Shown piece by piece: positions 1 through 21,885 of a DNA stretch of 21,885 nt; the first letter of the stretch is position 1; the number at the start of each line of letters is the position of its first letter. The notes under the pieces are model-generated. The model was given only the letters and a program-made list of their open reading frames with translations. It was not told the origin of the DNA and made no database searches. The stretch covers positions 1 to 21,885 of the IMG/VR virus record IMGVR_UViG_3300009285_008145. One strand, given 5' to 3'. The position numbers were made by a program, and so were the translations under genes. Source of the stretch: a virus.

Positions 1-163
1 CATTGTGCAGCGCGATCGCATCGGCGCCAGTGGCACAGCCTGTATTAATGATGCCTGGGTAGGAGCTTGCGAATTTTGCGCATGCGAGACCCGCCGCGCT
101 GGATGGCTGGACATTGCGCCCGCCGCCGATAAGGATTTGTTTATTTTCAAGATTGGTTTTCAT
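1..163 (-). CDS. SLOG/DprA-like Rossmann protein, N-terminal half (partial; continues at the right end of the window)
   Basis: Reading leftwards from ATG at 163, the frame is open to base 1 (54 codons). It begins with MKTNLENKQILIGGG, a first beta strand followed by a Gly-rich nucleotide-binding loop with an Arg (GGGR, residues 13-16). It reaches IINTGCATGADAIALHN (residues 38-54), the TGCxxGADA motif of SLOG/DprA-like Rossmann proteins, which bind nucleotides or nucleic acid. No strong Shine-Dalgarno precedes the ATG. The C-terminal half of the same fold lies on the same strand at 21508-21885, so the gene appears to cross the window junction. A simple end-to-end join is out of frame, so a few bases are missing or overlap there. 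SLOG membership is inferred from motifs; the biological role is unknown. Confidence 0.7.
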   Translation of the reverse strand, partial: MKTNLENKQILIGGGRNVQPSSAAGLACAKFASSYPGIINTGCATGADAIALHN

Positions 164-171
164 TGGGGAAT

Positions 172-215
172 TTTACTTGATTTATATATATAATGCAAGT
201 AAAGTGACCTTACAA
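172..215 (-). promoter_or_regulatory. Promoter and palindromic operator of the SLOG-like gene
   Basis: On the minus strand, TTGTAA (plus 210-215) lies 17 bp upstream of TATATA (plus 187-192), about 24 bp before the ATG at 163. The -10 sits inside a near-perfect 30-bp palindrome at 173-202, with TTACTTG on one arm and CAAGTAA on the other and four mismatched central positions. The -35 is embedded in a direct repeat, TGACCTTA at 205-212 and 216-223, spaced 11 bp (about one helical turn). The layout suggests repressor control. The binding protein is unknown. Confidence 0.5.
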
Positions 216-781: not shown

Positions 782-1000
782 TTATTCTTTGAACTGCTTT
801 GCGATGATGCGTATTGCTGTTGATCTTATGGGATGGATTTGCTTTAATGACTGGATAGTTTCATCATCGAGATAGTCCAGGTAATTCTTTGGATTGGTGC
901 CGATGCTTTCCGCGGGTCTGCCGATCTTCTTGCCTTTGCCTGCAACGCGCTTGCCTCCATGTTGTGCTTTTACTGTGTACTTGCCTTTAGGTTCGCTCAT
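782..1000 (-). CDS. Small basic protein of unknown function
   Basis: This encodes 72 residues from the ATG at 1000, chosen because AAAGGAG lies just upstream; an earlier in-frame start at 1036 would fall inside the promoter. The N-terminal half is rich in Lys, Arg and Gly (KGKYTVKAQHGGKRVAGKGK) and looks like a nucleic-acid-binding tail. The C-terminal half has YLDYLDDETIQSLKQIHPIR, an Asp/Glu-rich predicted helical segment resembling small phage proteins with a helix-turn-helix or ribbon-helix-helix end. It is a single-gene unit with its own consensus promoter (1020-1047) and terminator (722-770), which implies independent, probably strong, expression. The gene is real with good confidence; no family was recognised. 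Confidence 0.75.
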   Translation of the reverse strand: MSEPKGKYTVKAQHGGKRVAGKGKKIGRPAESIGTNPKNYLDYLDDETIQSLKQIHPIRSTAIRIIAKQFKE

Positions 1001-1010
1001 AAGAAACTCC

Positions 1011-1047
1011 TTTACTTGAATTATATATATAATCAATATCCTGTCAA
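1011..1047 (-). promoter_or_regulatory. Consensus sigma-70-type promoter of gene 782-1000
   Basis: On the minus strand TTGACA (plus 1042-1047) and TATAAT (plus 1020-1025) are perfect consensus hexamers with a 16-bp spacer, followed by a short leader containing AAAGGAG. The block at 1011-1033 matches 22 of 23 bases with 172-194 in the promoter of the SLOG-like gene, so the two promoters share their -10 region and early transcribed bases. Confidence 0.85.
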
Positions 1048-7192: not shown

Positions 7193-7456
7193 TTATTTCT
7201 CCTTTGGTTTGCGAGTGGGCGTGAGAGTCTTGACAGACTCACGCGCTTCCTCGTTGGTGTGGATGACCGAGCCGAAGGCGGCTTTCTGCGCTTCTTCAAG
7301 TTTTTGAATGGCGGCGAGAAGCTCAGCCTCGGTCCTGGTCAACTTGGGACCCGACGCAAGCACGAATGTGATCGAACCGTCATCGTGTAGTTTATACGCG
7401 CCCTCAATTACGAAAGTGCCCTTGAGCCTGGCATATTTGGAGGCGAGATTTAACAT
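7193..7456 (-). CDS. Small late protein with coiled-coil segment
   Basis: This encodes 87 residues. The ATG at 7456 follows the preceding stop directly (TAG-ATG), with GAGGT upstream. The N-terminal half looks beta-rich (TFVIEGAYKLHDDGSITFVL, residues 14-33) and is followed by a helix with heptad-like leucines, AELLAAIQKLEEAQKAA (residues 44-60). The tail is Lys/Arg/Pro-rich (TPTRKPKEK). It lies between a capsid-associated gene and the holin-like gene. No family was recognised; a minor structural or decoration role is possible from position. Confidence 0.65.
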   Translation of the reverse strand: MLNLASKYARLKGTFVIEGAYKLHDDGSITFVLASGPKLTRTEAELLAAIQKLEEAQKAAFGSVIHTNEEARESVKTLTPTRKPKEK

Positions 7457-7981
7457 CTACAACCTCGCAGTGTAATTGGCAACCGCGCCCAAAATATCCA
7501 GCGTGGTTGTGGCGGCGGCAATACAGGTCAGGGTTGCGATAAGTTCTTCATCGTTTTCGATGTAGAACGGAGTCGTGACGGTGAGGGTCAACTTGTGTTG
7601 ATCCACATCAGCCGCATCGGTCGCGGCGGTGAGGTCCTGGGTGGCTGTGATGGTTGAAACAACCGCAACCGAGCCATCCGCGCCGCGCTTGATCTTGGTG
7701 AGTGCGGCTGTAACGGAAGTGCAAGCCGCGATCAAGACTTCATAATCGAATTCGATCGATTCGATCAGACTGCCCTTGATTGCCACGCCCCCGGCGTCCA
7801 CTCCGCTATGACTCGGCAAAGGGATTGGTATGTAAACAATGGATGTTTCAGCGGCGGCGGCCTTGTGTTTGCAGATCGTTCCTGCGACCTGTCCCGCAAC
7901 TTCCGTCCAGGTGCCTGTGATGGGCATCATGGCGGTGGGCGGGATATAAAGAGATAGGTTTGGATCGTGTACGTAACCCAT
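7457..7981 (-). CDS. Probable capsid-associated/decoration protein
   Basis: This encodes 174 residues from the ATG at 7981, preceded by AAAGGAG at good spacing; an upstream in-frame start at 8002 lies before the ribosome binding site and is disfavoured. The protein is rich in Ala, Thr, Val and Ile with alternating beta-strand-like stretches (SIVYIPIPLPSHSG, ESIEFDYEVLIAACTSVTAA, HKLTLTVTTPFYIENDEELI) and has no membrane segment or signal peptide. It is the first gene after the major capsid gene, where head decoration or fibre proteins often lie, and its beta-sandwich-like composition fits. The function is inferred from position only. Confidence 0.7.
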   Translation of the reverse strand: MGYVHDPNLSLYIPPTAMMPITGTWTEVAGQVAGTICKHKAAAAETSIVYIPIPLPSHSGVDAGGVAIKGSLIESIEFDYEVLIAACTSVTAALTKIKRGADGSVAVVSTITATQDLTAATDAADVDQHKLTLTVTTPFYIENDEELIATLTCIAAATTTLDILGAVANYTARL

Positions 7982-8030
7982 GATATTTACTCCTTTTTTC
8001 ACTGGCTAGGGTGAGTCAGTGCGACTAATT

Positions 8031-8061
8031 CCTTTGGTGGCGCGCAGCGCGCCACCAAAGG
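8031..8061. terminator. Perfect 15-bp hairpin after the major capsid gene
   Basis: CCTTTGGTGGCGCGC (8031-8045) and GCGCGCCACCAAAGG (8047-8061) are perfect inverted repeats separated by a single base. The hairpin lies 20 bases after the capsid stop at 8082. It lacks a T-run on the minus strand, so it is more likely a partial terminator, RNase-blocking stabiliser or processing site that boosts capsid mRNA over downstream genes. Confidence 0.6.
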
Positions 8062-8081
8062 TGAATGAATTGTTTTACGGT

Positions 8082-9611
8082 TTAACCAGAGACGTTGGAC
8101 TTGTGCAACGGCATATCGTCCGCAACGCCGACTGTCACGAATTGCCTGACCTTCAAGCGGCTCTCGTCATTCGCGAACATGGCGGGGTCGATCTCGGAGG
8201 CGGCGGAGAAGATCTGAGGCTTGACGCCGAAGATCTCACCCAACATGACGCCTGGGCGAAGCTTGGGAGAAATGACAGCCGCCCAATCTGTGGCATCTGT
8301 CCACTCGGGGACAGCCAAAGGCTGAACCTTGCCGCCCCAACGAACGGAGGCGGTAGCCGGCACGTTCTGAGCCTGTGCTTCCCAACGTGGGATGAACAAG
8401 GCTTCAGCGGCGGTGATCAGATCTGCGGGGACAAGGCAGATGCTCGGCTTTAATGCCTGCGGCTTGCCTGTGCCGTAGTAACCTCCGGCATTCTTGACCA
8501 TCAGTTTCTTCTTATACATGGCAAGCGCGACCGCGTTCCAGGCGGTATAGTCCGTGCCGAGTGCGGTGGTCAAAAGATTGACATGTCCGCCGGCGGTGGT
8601 CTGCGCGGTGGCATTGAACAACGCTCCGCCATCCGTCATGGTTGGACCTGCGCCGGAGGCTTGCGTAAAGATCGCGGCAACTTGTTCGGAGATATTGCGA
8701 ATGCCGGCAAGAGCGACTTCGGAGGGCATGCGCCGGAATGCGCGCAGATCATCGCGCAGTACGGCTTCGATGGTCAACGGCACATAGCCGCCATACTTAC
8801 CCCATTCGGAGGTTTCCTTGATGTCGCCGATCGGCAACTCGGTGTAATCTCCGCGTTCCGCAACGGAGGGCAGGCTGGCGATCGTGCCGGTGCGAACCCA
8901 TGTGGCGGTGTTGAGGTTGGTGAAATGTTCGATGGTGGCGATCTGCTGCCACCAGCCGTAGGCTTCCTCGAAGTCCTTCCAGGCGTCGATCAACATCTTA
9001 TTTTGGACGTTGGCGACGATGCCTGGGAAATTGGCGGTTACCAGGGCGAACTCAGGGAAGTACCCGCCGGTGAAGAACTGATCGCCTGTAGCCATCTTAT
9101 AGGCTTGCAGGATGCCGTCAAGGCGGTGAACCTTGCGGTTTTCCTGACCAGGCTCGCGAGGCAGACCGAACATATCCGCGACCGCGAGGGCGAAATCGTC
9201 CGCCACGTTATACATATTGGTAATGCGCCCGGGTCCCTGAACATTATCCGCGCTGGTGAGGGCGGTCAGCACATCACGTTTCTTACTGATGGCGGTGTTC
9301 AATTCAGTAGCTTCGAACGTGCGTCCTTTGAATTGGTCTCTGATCTCTGTCTGCATGACATCAGGCAGACGGGAGGTGGAGAGTCCAACGGTGAGCAGGT
9401 GCTCGCACATGGAAACGAGGGTCTTGCGGCTCATCTCCAACTGTGCATCTTGTTCCTGTTGTCGTTGAGTTTCGCCCAACAACCTGGTGGCGGCAAGCTG
9501 ATTGGCTTCGATCTGCTGTTCCTGCAGGGACTGCTCAATCTGCTCTCCCTCGACCTCGGATTGCTCGTTAGTTTCGGGATCTGTAACTAAAACTTTCACT
9601 TTCTTTTTCAT
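8082..9611 (-). CDS. Major capsid protein from internal in-frame start
   Basis: This nested product would be 509 residues, starting at Met219 of the fusion frame. It begins MKKKVKVLVTD, which echoes the fusion's own MKKKNQ start. The minus strand reads AAAGGAGGTCAA-ATG, the strongest Shine-Dalgarno in the window, placed exactly before this ATG. The nested start lies at the natural boundary between the protease part and the capsid scaffold region. This parallels in-frame nested genes such as C/Nu3 in phage lambda. Independent synthesis would supply the hundreds of capsid subunits, with few copies of the fused protease. Use of the start is inferred, not shown. Confidence 0.75.
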   Translation of the reverse strand: MKKKVKVLVTDPETNEQSEVEGEQIEQSLQEQQIEANQLAATRLLGETQRQQEQDAQLEMSRKTLVSMCEHLLTVGLSTSRLPDVMQTEIRDQFKGRTFEATELNTAISKKRDVLTALTSADNVQGPGRITNMYNVADDFALAVADMFGLPREPGQENRKVHRLDGILQAYKMATGDQFFTGGYFPEFALVTANFPGIVANVQNKMLIDAWKDFEEAYGWWQQIATIEHFTNLNTATWVRTGTIASLPSVAERGDYTELPIGDIKETSEWGKYGGYVPLTIEAVLRDDLRAFRRMPSEVALAGIRNISEQVAAIFTQASGAGPTMTDGGALFNATAQTTAGGHVNLLTTALGTDYTAWNAVALAMYKKKLMVKNAGGYYGTGKPQALKPSICLVPADLITAAEALFIPRWEAQAQNVPATASVRWGGKVQPLAVPEWTDATDWAAVISPKLRPGVMLGEIFGVKPQIFSAASEIDPAMFANDESRLKVRQFVTVGVADDMPLHKSNVSG

Positions 9612-10265
9612 TTGACCTCCTTTGGTCAAGGGTTTATGTGACGCTTTCGCGCGGGTAACGGCGTTTAGATTGCCGATTACTTTGAGTTTGGTGTCATCAA
9701 TGGATTGGAGAATGCCAGTCCCATCAACGGCGGGATCATTGACTGCGGATGTCTCTATGCCTTTTGGATTGACCATGATTAATTCGCAATATTTATTTTC
9801 ATATAGGCGACCTCGAATGTGTTGACACTTGCTGTAGTCGCTGTAATCATTGCCGCAAATTGAGCAAAGCGTTTTCTCAGCTCTCCACCCGATTGAGAAG
9901 CGGTCTATCTGACCTTCCAGATAGGCGGTCATTCCTTTGCGCGTGGTGAGACGGATGGTCTGTATCATGGCGTTATTTTCCAACTTGGACGACTTGATGG
10001 TTCCGTCTCTGCTTTCGATGCTGTCTATATCGTGATTGCGAAGGAAAGGGGCGTTTTTGAATGAGTTTGAAAATGAGGGTAAGTCGTTATCCCGGAAGCG
10101 GACAAAGTTTTTATTCTGTCCATCCTTGAACACGCGTGCGGAAAATTCAATGTATTCCGTTTTGCCGCTGGTGATATCTGCCAGTGTTTGCTCGCGGTTT
10201 GCAGACTGTGATACCTGGTGAATTTCAGCAAGGCTGTAGAATATGATTTGGTTTTTCTTTTTCAT
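8082..10265 (-). CDS. Prohead protease-major capsid protein fusion
   Basis: This encodes 727 residues. Residues 1 to about 200 look like a prohead serine protease: NHDID with His78, FSIGW with Ser124, and a zinc-knuckle-like insertion CxxC...CxH (Cys134, Cys137, Cys147, His149), seen in some phage proteases. The remaining 509 residues look like a major capsid protein. They have a Gln/Glu-rich coiled-coil scaffold-like region (about 235-275), then a capsid domain with conserved-looking segments such as DFEEAYGWWQQIATIE and a C-terminal IFSAASEIDPAMFANDESRL. The start at 10265 has GAGGAG upstream and overlaps the portal stop. A second in-frame ATG at 9611 has a near-perfect ribosome binding site, so capsid protein can also be made alone. 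In most phages the protease and capsid are separate genes. Confidence 0.8.
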   Translation of the reverse strand: MKKKNQIIFYSLAEIHQVSQSANREQTLADITSGKTEYIEFSARVFKDGQNKNFVRFRDNDLPSFSNSFKNAPFLRNHDIDSIESRDGTIKSSKLENNAMIQTIRLTTRKGMTAYLEGQIDRFSIGWRAEKTLCSICGNDYSDYSKCQHIRGRLYENKYCELIMVNPKGIETSAVNDPAVDGTGILQSIDDTKLKVIGNLNAVTRAKASHKPLTKGGQMKKKVKVLVTDPETNEQSEVEGEQIEQSLQEQQIEANQLAATRLLGETQRQQEQDAQLEMSRKTLVSMCEHLLTVGLSTSRLPDVMQTEIRDQFKGRTFEATELNTAISKKRDVLTALTSADNVQGPGRITNMYNVADDFALAVADMFGLPREPGQENRKVHRLDGILQAYKMATGDQFFTGGYFPEFALVTANFPGIVANVQNKMLIDAWKDFEEAYGWWQQIATIEHFTNLNTATWVRTGTIASLPSVAERGDYTELPIGDIKETSEWGKYGGYVPLTIEAVLRDDLRAFRRMPSEVALAGIRNISEQVAAIFTQASGAGPTMTDGGALFNATAQTTAGGHVNLLTTALGTDYTAWNAVALAMYKKKLMVKNAGGYYGTGKPQALKPSICLVPADLITAAEALFIPRWEAQAQNVPATASVRWGGKVQPLAVPEWTDATDWAAVISPKLRPGVMLGEIFGVKPQIFSAASEIDPAMFANDESRLKVRQFVTVGVADDMPLHKSNVSG
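9614..9623 (-). promoter_or_regulatory. Strong internal ribosome binding site within the protease-capsid gene
   Basis: On the minus strand AAAGGAGGTC precedes the in-frame ATG at 9611 by two to four bases. It is a near-perfect complement to the 16S rRNA tail and stronger than the site at the beginning of the gene. Confidence 0.8.
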
Positions 10266-11680
10266 GGATTATTCTCCTCTGGTTCTTGTGGATCTGTTGG
10301 ATCTGTTTCGGGATCAACTATCAAAGGTGAGTCTTTCGCCGGCCTCACGAGCGGTTTCTTTTGAATATCGGGGACTGTGCCAGTCCAGACCTCCGCGAAG
10401 GTCTTGTAGACCAGGCGCATAAATTCTTTTGCGTCAATCGCGTCACGATCGAGCATATCCGCAAGATTGGGGTAGGCGCGCCCGAGCGCAAGCGCAAGCG
10501 TGGCGTTGTCCCGTTCGGTGATGTCGGGTCCCTCGATCCAGATTTTTGCATCGGGTTTTACTTTTTCGTAGCGCGCGCGAACTTCGAGCGCGACGCGCGC
10601 CATGTGAATTAATATCTCGAATAACTCGTCCTGGCTTTCCTCGAGCGTTCTGAAAGTTGGTGTGCCGGCGGCTTCCGCGGTGGTGCGATTGGAACCCTCC
10701 GGTTCCGCGAACCAGTGCATTGGGAAACCGAGACCTGAAAGGACATTTTTCTTGATGGCAAGACCGTCGGTATTGGCATCGGCTGATTCAAGTTTTGGGC
10801 TTATCGTTTCCCAGGTCTCGCCATTGTCCTTGTTCAACACAAGTGTCGAACCGGGTTTGGGCGGATTTTGATTTAGAAATTTCTCTCGTGCGCCGCGTTC
10901 GGTCTCGTTCTTATATGAGCCCGTGATGACATACATGAATGCGGTGCGGAAGTGGTTGAGTCTGACCCGATCTTCGAGCCAGGTGGAGAAACGTCCGATC
11001 CAAACCAGCAGGGGAGGCAGGTCGCCCTCCCCCCATGCCGAACCCACTGGTTGGTTGATGGCATAGTGAAGCATGAAACTATTCTGCTTTTGTTCGGAAC
11101 CGTAGTCTTGTTCGGGATCGTAGGCTTCCCAGGAGTCAACGCCAGTGGAGTCTTTGGTGTATTTGATCTCCTGTTCGATGTCGTTATCCCTGCTGATGAT
11201 TTCCTCGATCTGTTCAGCCGGTACGGCGCGGGGGTTGGTCATGCCATTGGCTTGCACTGTATACAGAAAGAACAGATTGCCTGTGCGGGTGACCTCGTCC
11301 GCCCAACGTTTTATATTCTTATTGAAATTGTTGAGGGGATGATGCCACCATTCGAGCAGAAATTTCAGAGTAGGCGGATCGTCACAGTTGATCGTGAGAC
11401 CCTTGCCGATGATGAATGAGCGCGTCAGCCGCACAATGCGGCGGGCAATGGGATTGACGCGCCAGGCACGCAAGGCTTCCGAAAAAACCTTCTTACGATC
11501 CCATGAGTTGCGGTCGTTGTATGCCGCGCTTAGTCCGCCTGGATAGAAGTTATCGTCCGTGACGGCGGAGGCGCTCAACGCCATTTCGAGTGCATCGTTC
11601 GTGTCTCGAAGCTGGCGTTCCAATTGCGCAATGCGGGATGGTTTCGACGAGCTTAACCTGTGAGTTTTTTTAGTAGGCAT
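10262..11680 (-). CDS. Portal protein
   Basis: This encodes 472 residues. The ATG at 11680 lies within the last codons of the terminase gene, with AAGGAAAT upstream. The protein shows a portal pattern: AYNDRNSWDRKKVFSEALRA and NPIARRIVRLTRSFIIGKG (residues 76-94) near the N-terminus. A central region follows with LVWIGRFSTWLEDRVRLNHF and the motif SGLGFPMHWF (residues 309-318), then the clip/stem-like NRTTAEAAGTPTFRTLEESQ. The C-terminus is acidic and Pro-rich. The dodecameric ring it forms would be the DNA entry gate of the capsid. The gene order terS, terL, portal, protease/capsid is the classic packaging-head module, and the overlaps show translational coupling. Confidence 0.85.
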   Translation of the reverse strand: MPTKKTHRLSSSKPSRIAQLERQLRDTNDALEMALSASAVTDDNFYPGGLSAAYNDRNSWDRKKVFSEALRAWRVNPIARRIVRLTRSFIIGKGLTINCDDPPTLKFLLEWWHHPLNNFNKNIKRWADEVTRTGNLFFLYTVQANGMTNPRAVPAEQIEEIISRDNDIEQEIKYTKDSTGVDSWEAYDPEQDYGSEQKQNSFMLHYAINQPVGSAWGEGDLPPLLVWIGRFSTWLEDRVRLNHFRTAFMYVITGSYKNETERGAREKFLNQNPPKPGSTLVLNKDNGETWETISPKLESADANTDGLAIKKNVLSGLGFPMHWFAEPEGSNRTTAEAAGTPTFRTLEESQDELFEILIHMARVALEVRARYEKVKPDAKIWIEGPDITERDNATLALALGRAYPNLADMLDRDAIDAKEFMRLVYKTFAEVWTGTVPDIQKKPLVRPAKDSPLIVDPETDPTDPQEPEENNP

Positions 11681-13163
11681 TATCCATTTCCTTGAGGGGG
11701 TCGGCGGCTTCGATGATGCTGGTCTCGAATTGGATCGACCATTCGAGTTTGTCCAATACGGCGGTCATGGCATCGGTCACCACAAAATCATCGTGGATCA
11801 GCAAGCCGTTCTCGTCGCGCGTGCCGTCCGGGACTGACCAGCACATGGTCTTGGCGGGTCCGATTAGGATTTCAGAGGTGCAAGCGGCGTACTGCTTATC
11901 CACTTCTGTGGAGGGACAGCAATCGCGGAAGCGGCCGGTATTGATGATGGCGAGGAAGCCGTAGCCGATCTCTGATTTAACCTGCTGGGTGAATTTGACC
12001 GGGATTACGCGGGTTGGGTGAGACTTGTCGAACATCGCCCAAAGCCCTTCCCCTACGCCGGTTGCGTCGATCACCATGTATTGCGGATTCCACTGTGACC
12101 AGAAAGCGTTTATTTTGCCGAATACCGAGGTATGCTTTTCACCTGTCCACGCAAAACGCGCGACTGACCTGTATATCGGAGCTTGAAGGGTATCGAGTTG
12201 GGATAGGTCAATGCTGACAATATCGAGGGTCAGCTGGTCGCGTCCTGGATTTTGTGTGCCGGCTTCATCGAGGTGCATGCTGGCTTCGTCCTGTCCCGCC
12301 ACGTCCACGATAAAGGCGTAGATCTGACCTTCCTGCGGGCTGGTTTGCGCCGGCTGATCACCCCGCATCAGAGCGCGGCGTCCGGGGTTGAACATGCCGG
12401 CTTCCGCGTCAATGCGCTTGCAAAAGTACTGGGTCTTGACAAGCGGATGTTCGCGTCCGAGTTTGGCGATCTCGCCGTCCACAAATTGACCATAAGCGGG
12501 AACGATCTTGCGAACTGTATCGGAGTCGTACACGAACACGCGCTTTACGCCATCCAACTTTTCGGCTTCGCGGGCGGCGTCCTCCTCGCGTGCGAGTAGT
12601 GTGCGGCTGGTCCAAGTTGTGCCAACGATCAAGCGCGTGGCGTTTGTGCTTGCGACCATTGGCGCAAAGTCTTTGTCATATTTGGCGGGTGAAATATCCT
12701 GGGCTTCGTTGACGACCAGCAGGAGTGAAGCGACTGCGCCGACCACGTTGGCGGTTTTATCGCCTGAAAGAAAACTCACCGTAGCCATGCCGATCATGCG
12801 CATATAGTCACTGCGTTTCTTCCATTGGGATTTTGTCAACAGGTTGGCTTTAAGTCTGTTTTCAAGCCGCATGATGGCATTGATCGTCTGCGGCTTGTAG
12901 GTGGGATTGGCAACGACAATCCCGACTTCGCGGTGTGCGAAAAGGGTAACGAGATAGGATAAGAGATTTGCCAGCAGTTCATCTTTTCCCGCCTGGCGTG
13001 AGATGATAAGAACGATGGTGTCCCCGCGCTTCTCTATAATGGATCTAAGAATTGCCTTTGCTGGCTCGAGCTGATAGGGACGCATTTTGATACCGCCTGC
13101 TCTGGCAGTGAAGGCGGGGAACGTGCGCCCGATGGTCTTGATGGTCTGGATCATGGTACTCAT
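11670..13163 (-). CDS. terL: Terminase large subunit
   Basis: This encodes 497 residues of the DNA-packaging motor. The ATPase half has Walker A SRQAGKDE (55-62), Walker B LLLVVNEAQD (147-156, with Asn-Glu in place of the usual Asp-Glu), and a coupling motif near GTTW (181-184). The nuclease half has the three acidic clusters of the RNase-H-like fold: VDVAGQD (Asp287), MVIDATGVGEGLW (Asp366) and HDDFVVTDAM (Asp458-459, Asp464). It would translocate DNA into the prohead and cut it. The start at 13163 lies two bases after the small-subunit stop, so translation is coupled. A second ATG three codons later is possible. Confidence 0.93.
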   Translation of the reverse strand: MSTMIQTIKTIGRTFPAFTARAGGIKMRPYQLEPAKAILRSIIEKRGDTIVLIISRQAGKDELLANLLSYLVTLFAHREVGIVVANPTYKPQTINAIMRLENRLKANLLTKSQWKKRSDYMRMIGMATVSFLSGDKTANVVGAVASLLLVVNEAQDISPAKYDKDFAPMVASTNATRLIVGTTWTSRTLLAREEDAAREAEKLDGVKRVFVYDSDTVRKIVPAYGQFVDGEIAKLGREHPLVKTQYFCKRIDAEAGMFNPGRRALMRGDQPAQTSPQEGQIYAFIVDVAGQDEASMHLDEAGTQNPGRDQLTLDIVSIDLSQLDTLQAPIYRSVARFAWTGEKHTSVFGKINAFWSQWNPQYMVIDATGVGEGLWAMFDKSHPTRVIPVKFTQQVKSEIGYGFLAIINTGRFRDCCPSTEVDKQYAACTSEILIGPAKTMCWSVPDGTRDENGLLIHDDFVVTDAMTAVLDKLEWSIQFETSIIEAADPLKEMDNAY

Positions 13164-13165
13164 AT

Positions 13166-13579
13166 CTATATCCCCATCTCAAGGCGTAATTCTTCTAGCG
13201 CGGTCAATATGGAGGTCTGGATATCTCCGACTTTGCCGTGCGTTAGGTAATGTGTGCGCACAAGGGTGGACAGGCTTTGGGTCATGGCTGCAAGAGTATT
13301 CAATTGGTTTATATAATGGCTGTCTCGAAATTCAGTATCATTAGCATCCTTGCGTTTGATCGCAACGAATGAGATTTGTTTCTTAAGTTTGTCGAGCATC
13401 ACACGCAGCAGGTTGATCTCCGCCAGGACATCAACATCGTCCTGCGCGTCCAGCCTTTTCTTCTCGTCGATAGTAAAGTTCTTCGAATAAAAGCCATGGC
13501 GCTGTGCGTTCTTATTACCGGGTTGCGCGCCCTTTGGTTTTGCGCTTTTGGCTTTCGGCTTGCGCTTGTTGGTCGTCAT
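13166..13579 (-). CDS. terS: Terminase small subunit
   Basis: This encodes 137 residues. The Lys/Arg-rich N-terminus contains KGAQPGNKNAQRHGFYSK (residues 16-33), the 'PGNxNAxxHGxY' motif seen at the front of many phage terminase small subunits. A helical region follows (DVDVLAEINLLRVMLDKLKK, residues 48-67) and would form the oligomerisation core. It should recognise the packaging site on phage DNA and deliver it to the large subunit. Its ATG overlaps the preceding stop (ATGA) and its stop is two bases before the large subunit, so the three genes are one translation unit. Confidence 0.85.
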   Translation of the reverse strand: MTTNKRKPKAKSAKPKGAQPGNKNAQRHGFYSKNFTIDEKKRLDAQDDVDVLAEINLLRVMLDKLKKQISFVAIKRKDANDTEFRDSHYINQLNTLAAMTQSLSTLVRTHYLTHGKVGDIQTSILTALEELRLEMGI

Positions 13580-15076: not shown

Positions 15077-15274
15077 TTATAAATCAAGTCTTATATATCT
15101 CTTCCGCTTCGGTTTGATTACGACATCTGGTAATAATAACCTGACTGCTTTCTCAATTGCAAATTTGACCGCATCCGTTTTAGACATTTTGAAAACTGCG
15201 TTCTCATTCAAACAATCCACCAATGCCATGACATAAACTTCATAATTACTCAAATCCGGACGGAATGTTTTCAT
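15077..15274 (-). CDS. Small protein of unknown function
   Basis: This encodes 65 residues. The start at 15274 is three bases after the preceding short gene's stop. Predicted helices include LSNYEVYVMALVDCLNE and KTDAVKFAIEKAVRLLL (residues 32-48). The end is strongly basic (KPKRKRYIRL). The helix with KxxAVxxAI is reminiscent of ribbon-helix-helix or small DNA-binding proteins, but not enough to assign it. It sits with the winged-helix and helix-turn-helix genes of the early block, which supports a regulatory role. Confidence 0.6.
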   Translation of the reverse strand: MKTFRPDLSNYEVYVMALVDCLNENAVFKMSKTDAVKFAIEKAVRLLLPDVVIKPKRKRYIRLDL

Positions 15275-15277
15275 GAT

Positions 15278-15373
15278 TTATTCCAATCGCAGCGCCAACT
15301 GCCCACCGAATTCATCTCTCATGTTTTTTACCAGCCGACGCGCATTCTCTAGCTGCGTCAACGCGCGGTTCAT
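15278..15373 (-). CDS. Very short gene, 31-residue helical protein
   Basis: ATG at 15373 is preceded by GGAGAGAAAC (a GGAG site at good spacing) and the frame ends with TAA at 15278-15280. The product starts MNRALTQLENARRLVKNMRD and ends FGGQLALRLE, an amphipathic helix. It fits exactly between the winged-helix gene (stop at 15416) and the gene starting at 15274, filling most of an otherwise empty gap. The in-frame sequence before the ATG continues as LEDGLDAAERN back to the previous stop without another start. It could instead be a remnant or extension of the preceding gene; confidence is moderate. Confidence 0.45.
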   Translation of the reverse strand: MNRALTQLENARRLVKNMRDEFGGQLALRLE

Positions 15374-15415
15374 GTTTCTCTCCGCCGCATCCAGCCCGTC
15401 CTCCAGGCTTGCCGC

Positions 15416-15643
15416 TCACCGGTATCCGCCGTGCGCGCTCGAACACACCAACCCGCCAGCCTGGTTGATCTCCTCTATCGCCGCTCTCAGCGTTCGGTCG
15501 TACGCATTGTTGTAGCTCTCGTCCGCCGCCGCGTATGCGCCATAAAGCTCGACAAGCAGTTCGCGTTTCTTGATTGACCTGGCTTGTCCACTATGGAAAT
15601 TTTTCATCAACCATAGTAGTCGTGATTTCAATTCATCTTCCAT
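15416..15643 (-). CDS. Winged-helix-like DNA-binding protein
   Basis: This encodes 75 residues; AGGT lies upstream of the ATG at 15643. The C-terminal two thirds carry a winged-helix signature, YDRTLRAAIEEINQAGGLVC (residues 48-67) ending SSAHGGYR. This is the recognition helix followed by a beta wing with the pattern 'RxLRxAIxxLxxxGxxIxSxxxGGYR', seen in small phage regulators and replication-associated proteins. The N-terminal helix (DELKSRLLWLMKNFHSGQAR) precedes it. It should bind DNA, perhaps as a regulator of the early genes. The target is unknown; the repeat array at 17017-17232 is a candidate. Confidence 0.65.
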   Translation of the reverse strand: MEDELKSRLLWLMKNFHSGQARSIKKRELLVELYGAYAAADESYNNAYDRTLRAAIEEINQAGGLVCSSAHGGYR

Positions 15644-15684
15644 GGGATACCTCGCTATAAGTGATACAAATTGTGCGGCGCCTT

Positions 15685-15996
15685 TTAGAATTTGTCATAG
15701 ATCTGTTTGATCAGGTCACGGCGTAGGGTTGGATCAAGTCTGCGCCACCAGCGGATGTGGTTTGGGACGATCTTTGGCACGCTGACCGCGCGCGGCTTGC
15801 GAGGCTTGCGCGGCAAACCGAATTTGACGCGCACATCCTGGTTGACCGGTTCTTTACCTTTCACCAAAGCTTTCCAGACTTCCGCGATATTGACATTGAG
15901 ATACTTGGCGATGCGGTAATGCGCGGGGTAGTCTTTCCAGAGTTTGACAAGCCGGCGTGGAGCGTGTGGGTGGAATTGTGGTTTGGGTTTTTTCAT
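15685..15996 (-). CDS. Small helix-turn-helix protein
   Basis: This encodes 103 residues from the ATG at 15996. Residues 14-60 carry a helix-turn-helix-like motif: RLVKLWKDYPAHYRIAKYLN (residues 15-34) and then VNIAEVWKALVKGKEPVN. The form 'YRIAKxLxVNxxxVWxxLxxGxxPxNxxxRxxLGLPRKPR' is one I associate with small phage and mobile-element DNA-binding proteins. A basic linker with many Arg, Lys and Pro residues follows, then a C-terminal helix (LRRDLIKQIYDKF). A DNA-binding role is likely; whether it is repressor, activator or packaging accessory cannot be told. Confidence 0.6.
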   Translation of the reverse strand: MKKPKPQFHPHAPRRLVKLWKDYPAHYRIAKYLNVNIAEVWKALVKGKEPVNQDVRVKFGLPRKPRKPRAVSVPKIVPNHIRWWRRLDPTLRRDLIKQIYDKF

Positions 15997-16011
15997 AGGG
16001 TTATTTCGCCG

Positions 16012-16341
16012 TCAATTTCGTTGATAAGATAGTTCGCTATCGGCTGCGCCTTCCGGGTCGTCATTATCCGGATTGTCAGCACCTTCCGCAGTTTCATGCG
16101 CATCCTGTCTGGTGCAGCCGTGTGCAATAAGACGACTTTCGTATTTCGCGCGCCATTCCATATCTGCGGTGATTTTCTCGCGGATGATACGTGCCAAATG
16201 CCTGCCCATCATTGCCGACTGGCAATCAATAAAGCGAGGGTAACGCGCAAGTACATTGTTTCGCTGACTCTCAGTTATGTCAGGAAATATATCTTGCGGA
16301 TACGTCTTTTCGATTTCATCAAGAATTTCAAGAATATTCAT
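16012..16341 (-). CDS. Protein of unknown function
   Basis: This encodes 109 residues with AAGGAG upstream of the ATG at 16341. The N-terminal 65 residues are helical (ILEILDEIEKTYPQDIFPDI, then RYPRFIDCQSAMMGRHLARI). The tail is acidic and Asp/Glu-rich (DNPDNDDPEGAADSE), probably disordered. Such an acidic tail occurs in DNA mimics and in small phage accessory proteins, but nothing is decisive. It follows the polymerase-like gene by about a dozen bases and is probably co-transcribed with it. Confidence 0.65.
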   Translation of the reverse strand: MNILEILDEIEKTYPQDIFPDITESQRNNVLARYPRFIDCQSAMMGRHLARIIREKITADMEWRAKYESRLIAHGCTRQDAHETAEGADNPDNDDPEGAADSELSYQRN

Positions 16342-16353
16342 GGTTGCTCCTTT

Positions 16354-16950
16354 TTATGGCGCCCAGGGCGCCACCGGCATCCAAACCGGTTCCCGTTTTT
16401 CCGGTTCGAGCCATCTTCTATCGCACAGCTTGAAATATGCCTGCTCGTCGGGGATCTCAACTCTTTTATCTCCTTTCCAAACCGTGCCTTTATCCACGTG
16501 GTATTTGTCGGGCAACGCGCCGCCTTTGGATATTTGAGTGACCATAAATTTCGAGAATGTGGCGGGACCGGTTCTGATCATATAAAGAACGCCCCAGCTT
16601 GCCGGCGGTGTGCAGATCCACAACTCGAACAGGAATGGATTAATGGGCGTCTCATAGCCGAACTCCTCCCAGCGACCGATGCGGTATTGGCGCATTTTCT
16701 CCGCGCCTTTGATCTTGGTCAATGCGCCGTCGAAGATCAGGTTGTCGAGGATTTGATCCAGCCTGGACTTATATGCCTTCTGCCCCCATTCCGGGCGTGG
16801 TGCGGCGGTGTTAGGTTTACAGACGATCTCCGTATCGTGGACATCCGCTCTCTGGCGGCGTAGTGAGCCGCAGATCTCCGCGATCTCACAGGCTGGACGG
16901 ATTTGGTCAAGTATCCATGCTGTGACGGCGAGGGCTTGTTTGTGTTCCAT
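16354..16950 (-). CDS. Minimal DNA polymerase X (Pol beta-like) nucleotidyltransferase
   Basis: This encodes 198 residues with AAAGGAG upstream of the ATG at 16950. CGSLRRQRADVHDTEIVC (residues 27-44) is the nucleotidyltransferase motif 'GSxRR...DxD/E' of family X polymerases, giving Asp39 and Glu41 as the first metal ligands. FLFELWIC (107-113) matches the strand holding the third carboxylate, here Glu109 where Pol beta has Asp256. SWGVLYMIRTGPATFSKFMV (118-137) and the later KYHVDKGTVW match the region after it in Pol beta. The C-terminal PDEQAYFKLCDRRWLEPEKR resembles the PolX end. The 8-kDa lyase domain and fingers of full polymerases are absent. It may fill gaps, add nucleotides or transfer a nucleotide to another molecule. 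Confidence 0.75.
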   Translation of the reverse strand: MEHKQALAVTAWILDQIRPACEIAEICGSLRRQRADVHDTEIVCKPNTAAPRPEWGQKAYKSRLDQILDNLIFDGALTKIKGAEKMRQYRIGRWEEFGYETPINPFLFELWICTPPASWGVLYMIRTGPATFSKFMVTQISKGGALPDKYHVDKGTVWKGDKRVEIPDEQAYFKLCDRRWLEPEKREPVWMPVAPWAP

Positions 16951-16995
16951 ATGACTCTCCTTTTCTTTATTTGCATGTATATATATAAAAATTTA
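16951..16995 (-). promoter_or_regulatory. AT-rich promoter region of the polymerase-like gene
   Basis: On the minus strand a run of TATATATATATA (plus about 16976-16988) precedes ATGCAAATAAAG and the AAAGGAG ribosome site of the gene at 16950. A TATATA -10 with a weak upstream -35 is plausible. The layout (TA-tract, then CAAATAAAG) resembles the promoters at 172-194 and 1011-1033. The AAAGGTACAA array begins just upstream. Confidence 0.4.
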
Positions 16996-17016
16996 ATTTT
17001 AGAAGTAGTAGTAGGG

Positions 17017-17232
17017 AAAGGTACAACTCGGTTTTTTGGAGCGCCATATAGCAGGATGTGTCTTTATAGGGGGAAAGGTGTACCTTTAACAAAGGTACAA
17101 GTCGGGGGGAACTCAGGTACAACTCACCCCGAAAAGGTACATCTTCAATTTTGGGTGTGATTTTCATTGAATTACCGCCTCAAAAGGTACAAGTAGGGCA
17201 CTTGTACCTTTCTGTACCTTTTTTGTACCTTT
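17017..17232. repeat. Array of nine AAAGGTACAA-type sites (iterons or operators)
   Basis: Nine copies of a GTAC-centred motif with consensus AAAGGTACAAST, with GTAC beginning at 17021, 17080, 17095, 17117, 17137, 17187, 17204, 17214 and 17225. Those at 17021, 17095, 17117, 17137 and 17187 read on the plus strand and the others on the minus. AAAGGTACAAGT (17183-17194) and ACTTGTACCTTT (17200-17211) form a perfect 12-bp inverted repeat, and the last three copies are spaced 10-11 bp. Four copies lie in the 3' end of gene 17164-17643, where they encode repeated Lys-Gly-Thr or its reverse-strand partner; the others fill the gap before the polymerase-like gene. The array could be a replication origin or a multi-site operator. 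Confidence 0.85.
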
Positions 17233-17643
17233 GTTCGAGTTGGGCTCTCTTTGAGAGAGCGGTACGATTAGAATTGTGTCTGATTCCGGCTCGTAAGAAA
17301 GGTAGTGATTTTCAGTTGGCTCGGGCAGGGATTGGAACTGTGCGACAAAATCATCCCAGCCTGCCTGAGACCAGTACCATGAGCACATCAGATCGCGCAG
17401 TAGATAGGTGAAATTGAGTTCGTTGATGGCGCGATCAACGCCTTTGATCACTGCGATGCTTTCCGACAATGTGCCGTCTATTCGCATGACTGGTCGAGGG
17501 ACGCATCTTTGAACGACCTGCGCAATGTGTTCGGTGTTCATGCCGGCTGAGCGTGCGGTCTTTCTGTTGTTGTAGTGCCACTCCCATGCCGAGGCTCGGC
17601 GTTTGTAGATTTCCTTTACGGAGATAATGGTGCGGCGCGGCAT
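17164..17643 (-). CDS. Protein of unknown function
   Basis: This encodes 159 residues from the ATG at 17643, which overlaps the preceding stop (TAATG), so translation is coupled; the longer frame upstream overlaps the previous gene and is rejected. The N-terminus is basic (MPRRTIISVKEIYKRRASAW), followed by WHYNNRKTARSAGMNTEHIA. A helical middle carries NELNFTYLLRDLMCSWYWSQ (residues 89-108), and the C-terminus ends with the GGTACA-encoded repeats NKGTKKVQKGTSALLVPFE. It may bind DNA through the basic N-terminus. The C-terminal coding sequence doubles as part of the repeat array, a hint that the protein acts on or next to it, as replication initiators often do. Unproven. Confidence 0.6.
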   Translation of the reverse strand: MPRRTIISVKEIYKRRASAWEWHYNNRKTARSAGMNTEHIAQVVQRCVPRPVMRIDGTLSESIAVIKGVDRAINELNFTYLLRDLMCSWYWSQAGWDDFVAQFQSLPEPTENHYLSYEPESDTILIVPLSQREPNSNKGTKKVQKGTSALLVPFEAVIQ

Positions 17644-17897
17644 TAGAAATTCTCCGATGCTTCGCGCATGATGAAGTAGGCGAAGTCTTGCGCCTGCGGC
17701 AAGTTGTCCGCTTGCTTGGTTTCGAAATGCATTGGCTTTGCCATGTCTTTGGTTTGATATTGGACAAGTCCGATAAAAGCGCCATCGGGTAATTCGAATA
17801 TCTGTATATTGGCAATGTCTGATTTTTTCTGCCATACGCACACACCCTGGGATTTGGTGCGACCAATGGCTAGGGTTGAAAACATCTTGCTTATCAT
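17643..17897 (-). CDS. Small protein of unknown function
   Basis: This encodes 84 residues from the ATG at 17897, which has AAAAAGGAG upstream; the longer frame beginning at 18032 lacks a ribosome site. It begins MISKMFSTLAIGRTKSQGVC and continues with beta-rich IQIFELPDGAFIGLVQYQTK (residues 31-50), then a helical end (AQDFAYFIMREASE). It is the first gene of the leftward early block, diverging from the integrase across about 160 bases. No family was recognised. Its position next to integrase and upstream of a possible initiator suggests early expression. Confidence 0.6.
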   Translation of the reverse strand: MISKMFSTLAIGRTKSQGVCVWQKKSDIANIQIFELPDGAFIGLVQYQTKDMAKPMHFETKQADNLPQAQDFAYFIMREASENF

Positions 17898-18059
17898 AAG
17901 AACTCCTTTTTGTTGTAAAATAGGGATATGTCGCCGTCCGGTTGAAAGACCTGAGAACTCCGTCAGTCGGGCGGCGGCTGTGCGTGTCCGGCGTTCACGG
18001 CGCGGGACCTGAGCAGAGCCATGGGATAGCAAGGCTCTGTATCATTCATGGAGATTGAA
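17898..18059. promoter_or_regulatory. Divergent promoter region between early block and integrase
   Basis: This is 162 bases between the leftward gene at 17897 and the rightward integrase at 18060. CAGAGCC (18014-18020) pairs with GGCTCTG (18033-18039) around a 12-base loop just upstream of the integrase ribosome site. No consensus -35/-10 pair is obvious on the plus strand, which would suit regulated integrase expression. Confidence 0.35.
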
Positions 18060-18881
18060 ATGAATACGTTGATCGAAGATTTTCTTGCGTCGCATCCTTA
18101 TGCTGACTCGACCAAGAAAAAGTATCGCGTTATCTTGCCTCGCTTGTTGTCTATCCTTGACCTTGAGAAAACAAGCGCGGCAGAATTGTTATGTTTGATT
18201 GAAAAGCCTGAATGGGGAAACACTCAACGGGCGTTTGTTCTTTACTCGTATCAGAAGTTTTTGCGCTGGCGGTTTGGTTCGCTGCATCCCGCTCTTAGCG
18301 CGAGGATTAAGCGGATCAAGCCAAAACCGCGAAGATCACTGAACGCAAACAAAGCGCTGGAATTGCTGGCGTCATTCAACCCCTACACGCCGATCGGAGC
18401 GCGCGACTTGGCTCTTGTCGCATACGGGCTGGATACCGGTTTTCGGCGCGAGGAACTGTGCGGCAGTTTATTGGCTGATGTTGATTTCACCAACAATACC
18501 GCGCTCGCGCTGTGCAAAGGTGGCGAATATAAATACGCTGCCTTTTCGCCTGAGACAGCTCACATCATCCAGACCTGGCTTGCGGTGCGCAAGCCGGCGG
18601 CGAATGTCGATAATCTATTCGTTAACATTCGAAGCGGTAAGGCTCTTACCGGGGATGGCATGGGATGTATATTCAAGGGATGGAGTAGGAAGATAGGTTT
18701 TAAGATTTCCCCGCACGATCTTCGATCTTCTTTTGCGACCCTAGCCACGATATATGGTGCGCCGTCTCGTACGGTTCAATTGGCGGGGCGTTGGGCGAGT
18801 ATTGAGATGGTGGAGCACTATACTGGAAACTTGAAACTTGAGGCTATTCGGGCTTACCTGCCGATGGCAAATCTAAGGTAA
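18060..18881 (+). CDS. int: Tyrosine recombinase (phage integrase)
   Basis: This encodes 273 residues from the ATG at 18060, chosen because GGAG lies six bases before it; an ATG at 18048 has no ribosome site. The N-terminal SAM-like core-binding domain covers about residues 1-90 (YADSTKKKYRVILPRLLSIL). The catalytic domain carries the full set: TGFRREEL (Arg129), CKGGEYKY (Lys153), PHDLRSSFAT (His219, Arg222), GRWAS (Trp245 in the His/Trp position) and the nucleophile EHYTGNL (Tyr254). It would insert the phage genome at a host site by strand exchange. It is the only convincing plus-strand gene. A tRNA 3'-end-like sequence 50 bases downstream (18934-18960) is the probable attP core. It lacks the arm-binding domain of lambda-type integrases. 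Confidence 0.93.
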   Translation: MNTLIEDFLASHPYADSTKKKYRVILPRLLSILDLEKTSAAELLCLIEKPEWGNTQRAFVLYSYQKFLRWRFGSLHPALSARIKRIKPKPRRSLNANKALELLASFNPYTPIGARDLALVAYGLDTGFRREELCGSLLADVDFTNNTALALCKGGEYKYAAFSPETAHIIQTWLAVRKPAANVDNLFVNIRSGKALTGDGMGCIFKGWSRKIGFKISPHDLRSSFATLATIYGAPSRTVQLAGRWASIEMVEHYTGNLKLEAIRAYLPMANLR

Positions 18882-20618: not shown

Positions 20619-20924
20619 TTACCAACCCTGATCAACGTCAATATATTGTGGTTCGTCTACTTCCTGCGCCATGAGCCAATCTAATTGACGATCATTCATC
20701 GGGATTAATTCAAAGCCTTTGCCCTGGTGTTTGTTGTAATGCGTGCGGGTTGTTTGTGCCGCGAAGAAAAAGTCTTCTCCGTGACAAATGACTAAACCTC
20801 GACGGGTCTTTTCTACCCAGTGGGCGATCATGCATTCAGGGCAATAATCACGCTCGAAATACATCGGGTAGTTGATCAGCGGACGGCTTGCGCGTGTGGC
20901 TGGCTGTGTGCTGGTGGTGTTCAT
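20619..20924 (-). CDS. Small Cys-containing protein of unknown function
   Basis: This encodes 101 residues; its ATG overlaps the preceding stop (ATGA) and AGGTG lies upstream. After a Ser/Thr-rich start comes YCPEC (a CxxC pair at residues 28-31), RRGLVICHGEDFFFAAQTTR, and a C-terminal acidic segment (DRQLDWLMAQEVDEPQYIDV). With only one clear CxxC plus Cys47 and nearby His residues, metal binding is possible but not certain. It belongs to the right-hand accessory operon of overlapping small genes. Confidence 0.6.
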   Translation of the reverse strand: MNTTSTQPATRASRPLINYPMYFERDYCPECMIAHWVEKTRRGLVICHGEDFFFAAQTTRTHYNKHQGKGFELIPMNDRQLDWLMAQEVDEPQYIDVDQGW

Positions 20925-21157
20925 TGGATCACCTGCTCAACTGTGGCGTAGGCGTTTGCCAGGCGCGAAAATAACACAGATACGGGCAATGACGCGCCAT
21001 TGAAAAGCACATGCGCGAGCAGGTAGTGCTTTTGCGTGGCTGTGTCGTAGACATTCCGCAGGTCTAAAACTTTGACCTGCCGACCTTCGACCATCGCATA
21101 AAGTGCGACTATGCGTTGGTTGGTCTTAAGCGTGGTTGTGGTGGTGTAGGCTTGCAT
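20921..21157 (-). CDS. Small protein of unknown function
   Basis: This encodes 78 residues from the ATG at 21157, which has ACGGAG eight bases upstream; a longer frame starting at 21259 would run through the leader and overlap the previous gene's stop, so it is rejected. It begins MQAYTTTTTLKTNQRIVALY, contains a beta-rich VEGRQVKVLDLRNVYDTATQ and ends in a helix (RLANAYATVEQVI). The compact beta-rich look suggests a small binding domain. No family recognised. Confidence 0.55.
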   Translation of the reverse strand: MQAYTTTTTLKTNQRIVALYAMVEGRQVKVLDLRNVYDTATQKHYLLAHVLFNGASLPVSVLFSRLANAYATVEQVIQ

Positions 21158-21258
21158 TTTGAGAACTCCGTTTCGTGTGACGCGGAAACGTTCCGCGCTA
21201 TATGGGGGCTTAGTGCCCTCCTGACCTGCTCCGAACGATCGGGGCAGGATGCAGGGCA
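21158..21258 (-). promoter_or_regulatory. Leader region upstream of gene 20921-21157
   Basis: About 100 bases between two small genes. It holds possible hairpins on the minus strand (GCGGAAC / GTTCCGC-like around 21181-21200, and GGAGGGCAC with the GTGCCCTCC at about 21211-21219). It may be an attenuator or carry a separate promoter. Evidence is weak. Confidence 0.25.
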
Positions 21259-21468
21259 TTAACCTTGCTCAAATAATTGTTCCAGCATATCAAGCGCGGC
21301 GTTACTTAACAGGAAGGATTTATCTATTACTGCCAGAGTGGCTGTTGCGCCTTCGATGTATGCGCTCATTTCGGCTTTGGTTGCTGTGCCTTTGGTGCGA
21401 TTGTTGAACCAATCGCGGGCTTCTTTCTTGATTTCTGCCATGACTTTTTCTAACTGTTCTTTTTGCAT
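21259..21468 (-). CDS. Small helical protein of unknown function
   Basis: This encodes 69 residues with AAGGAG upstream of the ATG at 21468. It is entirely helical in appearance: MQKEQLEKVMAEIKKEARDW, a Thr/Lys-rich turn (NNRTKGTATKAEM), then SAYIEGATATLAVIDKSFLL and a final amphipathic ALDMLEQLFEQG. Its two-helix hairpin with leucine spacing is like small phage accessory or inhibitor proteins, but I cannot assign it. It lies next to the SLOG-like gene (stop at 21508) and may share its transcript. Confidence 0.6.
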   Translation of the reverse strand: MQKEQLEKVMAEIKKEARDWFNNRTKGTATKAEMSAYIEGATATLAVIDKSFLLSNAALDMLEQLFEQG

Positions 21469-21507: not shown

Positions 21508-21885
21508 TTAAAATAAACTGGCTTGCTTTGCTGGGGTGTATTGCCAGAACTCGAAACCCTGCCAGGTGATGAGGCGCGCGGGGACTGGCAGGACCGGCGC
21601 GACTGGCACGCCAGCACATGAGACAAAGACCGTGATGCCTGCTTTGAGCGCAGCGCGTGCGACTTTGAGCGAGCCGATGCCAGGCGCAAAAAAAACGGCA
21701 GACGAACAGCCAGCCAGAGCCGCAACACTGCGGGACATGAGACGCGCGATAAGCGGCACCTGGAGACCGCCGCCTGCCAGCCAACTGACGGACAAACAGC
21801 GGGATGCGGCAATGCGGACACCTGAGGTATTTGAGCCGGCAAAACTGCCCGCCCCGCCCTGGGCAAATGCCACAAACAGATTGAC
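21508..21885 (-). CDS. SLOG/DprA-like Rossmann protein, C-terminal half (partial; continues from the left end of the window)
   Basis: The frame is open from the window edge at 21885 to the stop at 21508 (125 residues visible). It begins with a beta strand (VNLFVAFAQGGAGSF), then SWLAGGG, and VPLIARLMSRSVAALAGCSS. The strand-helix unit AVFFAPGIGSLKVARAAL (residues about 69-86) carries a GxGS signature, followed by AGITVFVS. These features match the second half of SLOG/DprA-like proteins, where the strand 'AxFFxPGxGSLxxARAA' helps bind a ligand. GTG at 21873 could only serve as an internal start. The N-terminal half with the TGCxxGADA motif is at 1-163 on the same strand. Between the halves about five residues seem to be missing by comparison with the family, so the join is not exact. 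Confidence 0.7.
   Translation of the reverse strand, partial: VNLFVAFAQGGAGSFAGSNTSGVRIAASRCLSVSWLAGGGLQVPLIARLMSRSVAALAGCSSAVFFAPGIGSLKVARAALKAGITVFVSCAGVPVAPVLPVPARLITWQGFEFWQYTPAKQASLF

Follow-up and report, generated by a model that had tools for sequence, protein, structure and literature searches.

The locus considered here raises a simple question: do two gene pieces lying at opposite ends of one virus record belong to a single gene and, if so, what form does the genome take? The window, meaning the whole stretch of DNA analysed, is an entire IMG/VR virus record of 21,885 bp. The first-pass annotation, made from the sequence alone, had proposed that one SLOG gene on the minus strand is split across the two ends. 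The two pieces are:

1..163, minus strand: 5' part of the split SLOG/DprA-like gene (codons 1-54 plus one base; start at 163)
21508..21885, minus strand: 3' part of the split SLOG/DprA-like gene (125 codons plus stop)

The N-terminal half reads from 163 to 2 as 54 codons (MKTNLENKQILIGGGRNVQPSSAAGLACAKFASSYPGIINTGCATGADAIALHN), with base 1 left over, and contains the motifs GGGR (GGSR in nearly all relatives) and GCATGAD. The C-terminal half reads from 21885 to 21508 as 125 open codons (VNLFVAFAQGGAGSFAG...FFAPGIGSLKVARAALKAGITVF...QASLF) followed by TAA, and contains the motifs AGGG, RSVAALAG, and FFAPGIGS. A search of IMG/VR with the joined halves, sharing one base, returned three relatives, each aligned through the junction without a change of frame. 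We widened the set of relatives by a search with the terminase large subunit (TerL), and then with a profile built from seven intact proteins. An intact SLOG gene is present in sixteen related phage contigs, exactly one copy each, and all of them carry the same terminase. Within the window, the profile of seven intact relatives matches the two halves and no other place: the C-terminal half corresponds to profile positions 70-170 (E 1.7e-27) and the N-terminal half to positions 4-47 (E 0.003, a weak match taken alone). The halves therefore do not align to the same part of the family (4-47 versus 70-170). The two reading frames and these alignments confirm the proposed split gene, and show the halves to be complementary parts of one predicted SLOG-fold protein family.

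The genes and DNA flanking each half were compared with the surroundings of the intact gene in the relatives. Three neighbouring genes are informative:

782..1036, minus strand: 84-aa gene; in G006 its homologue immediately precedes the intact SLOG gene
20921..21259, minus strand: 112-aa gene; in G004 its homologue immediately follows the intact SLOG gene
20619..20924, minus strand: 101-aa gene; in G001-G005 and G032 its homologues come after the intact SLOG gene

On the N-terminal side, window DNA at 317-396 and 531-689 matches DNA that precedes the intact SLOG gene in G005 (81% identity), G006 (81% over 160 bp), and G032 (79%). On the C-terminal side, the order SLOG, 112-aa gene, 101-aa gene is found in G004, with 69% identical proteins. 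Since the outer neighbours of both halves flank one intact gene in relatives, the two halves make up one gene.

Placing the window ends side by side puts the gene out of frame, as the first-pass annotation had noted. A single shared terminal C, the only identity between the ends, restores the frame. The window has no direct terminal overlap longer than 1 bp, so the record is not closed by its own sequence, and it has no inverted terminal repeat. In the 16 intact proteins, the loop from GAD to the next strand spans 13-24 residues (median 15.5); with one base shared, the same loop in the window spans 8. Hence, we estimate from protein lengths, and not by reconstruction, that about 5-9 residues are missing at the junction, equivalent to 14-26 bp and always 3n+2, in agreement with the earlier suggestion that about 5 residues were lost. 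IMG/VR yielded no match to exact DNA patterns that span the junction, whether with 0-10 bases added or with 1 bp shared, and no contig with the intact junction of the window's phage was found in that database.

Five further genes of the window identify the type of element:

11670..13163, minus strand: terminase large subunit, TerL (HMM libraries)
13166..13579, minus strand: terminase small subunit, TerS (HMM libraries)
10262..11680, minus strand: portal protein (HMM libraries)
8082..10265, minus strand: major capsid protein with a head-maturation-protease-like N-terminal part, in a 727-aa ORF (HMM libraries)
18048..18881, plus strand: tyrosine recombinase, or integrase (HMM libraries)

Together, the terminase, portal, capsid/protease, and integrase genes show that the window comes from a tailed phage that is probably temperate. 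Most relatives match the 727-aa ORF across almost its full length. No tRNA genes were found in the window. Megablast of the window against named phages gave no match, and the sole match of TerL among them was to Bacillus phage vB_BboS-125, at 29%. We also noted an exact 22-bp direct repeat, GGTTCTGCGGAGGCTATGCCGA, at 2512-2600, with copies 67 bp apart. In G001, G027, and G030, part of the tail-fibre-like 487-aa protein (residues 151-235) is found between the portal and capsid genes, not after the tail genes; the G001 copy, at 15142-15402 (L010 3942-4202), is 66% identical.

The relatives also bear on the form of the genome. Six have exact direct terminal overlaps (77 bp in G002, 99 bp in G012, 123 bp in G005, and 127 bp in each of G007, G028, and G031), which give closed circular maps of 17.6-27.7 kb; the overlap in G027 is 149 bp with 9 mismatches. 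Overlaps of 77-127 bp have lengths typical of assembler k-mers. Reading from TerL, the core gene order that these relatives share with the window is TerL, portal, capsid, and the 181-aa and 216-aa genes, with SLOG later and TerS last. The 101-aa gene comes after SLOG in several relatives, and the integrase gene lies before SLOG, rather than after it, in G005, G032, and G025. With TerL set at 0, the breaks of the seven overlapping contigs are spread over 0.33-0.85 of the circle, so a fixed end is excluded. Around SLOG, G001 and G002 share 98% identity, and each contig is a circular permutation of the other. Several relatives, such as G003, G025, G026, and G030, have no end overlap. Since these may be fragments, completeness is not proved by gene content alone; both the gene content and the length of the window match those of the closed relatives.

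Taken together, we consider it very probable that the record represents all or nearly all of a small tailed-phage genome of about 21.9 kb, whose map is circular and was opened inside the SLOG gene with the loss of the short junction piece. The assembler would have opened the circle at an arbitrary point within this single-domain SLOG/DprA-like Rossmann gene, and the loss of perhaps 14-26 bp at the opening would have left the gene halves at opposite ends. As terminase and portal genes are present, the packaged DNA is presumably linear. Virion DNA would then be a linear, terminase-packaged molecule, and the circle would reflect either a replicating or excised form or the effect of permuted, redundant ends. 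A circular map is compatible with a circle, with headful-permuted linear DNA, or with joined cos ends. Hence, the earlier proposal of a whole small circular genome holds for the map, given the intact gene, the overlaps, and the permuted breaks of the relatives; it does not extend to a circular virion molecule.

Three other explanations of the split gene were weighed and rejected on the evidence against each. The genome might be linear and have physical ends at fixed positions (cos or protein-capped) that by chance lie within the SLOG gene. This would account for the lack of an end overlap in the window, but the gene is intact in relatives, the contigs break at differing places in the gene order, the window has no inverted terminal repeat, and it is itself unlikely that a fixed end would interrupt a coding gene and leave bases missing; we regard such ends as extremely improbable. 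The same slight probability attaches to the window being an internal fragment of a larger element, such as a prophage, in which two different SLOG genes are each cut by one end. In one Anaerolineae genome, a single contig does contain both a terminase and a SLOG gene, about 14 kb apart and in opposite orientations. Against this, each related phage searched whole has exactly one SLOG gene, the two halves complement each other and have outer neighbours that match, and the content and length of the window fit the closed relatives (17.6-27.7 kb).

The circle could also be real and the SLOG gene truly disrupted by a frameshift, as the out-of-frame abutment would allow. The break, however, falls exactly at the contig ends, and a loop some 5-9 residues shorter than in the 16 intact proteins fits lost bases, not mutation, making a genuinely broken gene very unlikely. 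We therefore favour a gene split by the opening of a circular assembly, an ordinary and useful property of metagenome phage assembly. On this reading the record is a whole phage genome and not a fragment, so that its gene content and its absences can be read as real.

Two features lie on the N-terminal side of the split gene:

557-337, minus strand: covarying structured RNA candidate, a conserved landmark on this side of the gene
172..203: imperfect AT-rich palindrome TTTACTTGATTTATATATATAATGCAAGTAAA, composed of TTTACTTGA-TTATATATATAA-TGCAAGTAAA, just upstream of the gene

The RNA candidate is present in six phages (the window, G003, G005, G006, G007, and G032). Of its 40 predicted pairs, 20 show compensatory changes; 90% of cells are paired, a share that drops to about 44% after a shift of one column, and the covariation score is 0.387 versus 0.169 after shuffling (0/500). 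No Rfam family reached its gathering score, and a permissive scan of the region gave one sub-threshold match only. Scanning IMG/VR by DNA pattern with a covariance-model filter yielded two weak matches (E 0.02-0.04) besides four phages that the set already contained, with no clear new members. One arm of the palindrome recurs as a partial second copy at 1011-1033, upstream of the 84-aa gene, which suggests a probable shared promoter/operator.

Anaerolineae/Chloroflexota genomes, including Leptolinea tardivitalis, contain homologues of the portal, the capsid, and TerL (the last at up to 46% identity), and two of those genomes also have SLOG homologues. These similarities suggest a host in the Chloroflexota. 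In two Anaerolineae genomes, L098 (G016, about 7391-9863) and L099 (G015, about 15615-18086), a SLOG homologue is followed by a similar small-gene set and a 269-290 aa protein, which may resemble ArdC N-terminal/ssDNA-binding domains. The set is a possible ssDNA-handling or anti-restriction cassette. We think it likely that the window belongs to a clade of small tailed phages (17-31 kb), not described before, that look temperate and are associated with Chloroflexota. Their core genes would include a DprA-like SLOG protein that current family models do not detect, and in a subset a new covarying RNA (about 140-240 nt) would lie immediately upstream of its gene. The SLOG gene, kept throughout the clade, would be missed twice by annotation: it is cut by the contig ends and is unseen by family models.

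What, then, is the SLOG protein? Curated models from Pfam, PHROGs, NCBIfam, and PADLOC gave no significant match, and the Pfam DprA model scored below its cut-off (E 0.19). We predicted the structure of the intact protein from G002 (mean pLDDT 76, pTM 0.75, with a low-confidence junction loop at 51-72). Its best fold match was DprA (3maj; Z 14.0, 156 residues, rmsd 3.0), followed by Moco carrier proteins (Z 12.5), ShosA, LOG (11.4), and the ThsA SLOG domain (9.0). The intact relative is thus predicted to have a Rossmann fold in common with DprA, LOG, the Moco carrier, and ThsA SLOG. The SAM and winged-helix domains that flank the Rossmann domain in DprA proper are absent from the G002 fold model, which consists of the Rossmann domain only.

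Binding of ssDNA or of an adenine nucleotide is the most likely activity of the protein, by analogy with DprA and the other members of the SLOG superfamily. Phage SLOG proteins have been proposed to counter NAD-derived host signals (PMC9503650), and jumbo-phage DprA proteins have been proposed as possible ssDNA-binding proteins (PMC7824862). A role in phage recombination and one in counter-defence appear about evenly balanced, with the stronger predicted fold match to DprA slightly favouring ssDNA and recombination.

Comparison with known systems places both the protein and the record. The window's family resembles the DprA/Smf branch in predicted fold and in motif order (GGSR, GCxxGAD, ARxxxRS, AVFFxPGxGS, GIPVF), but differs in being a Rossmann domain alone, with intact relatives of about 170-195 aa and a sequence below the Pfam DprA cut-off. 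The YspA/YAcAr/DUF2493 SLOG proteins of phages are likewise standalone domains, with Foldseek matches in the viral library; the window's family has no significant sequence match to them. As for the record, it is like the circularly permuted complete-phage contigs of IMG/VR (direct-terminal-repeat) in having a circular map with an arbitrary break, and its relatives sharing gene order close by overlaps of k-mer length. Unlike those contigs, the window has no k-mer overlap and instead lacks about 14-26 bp.
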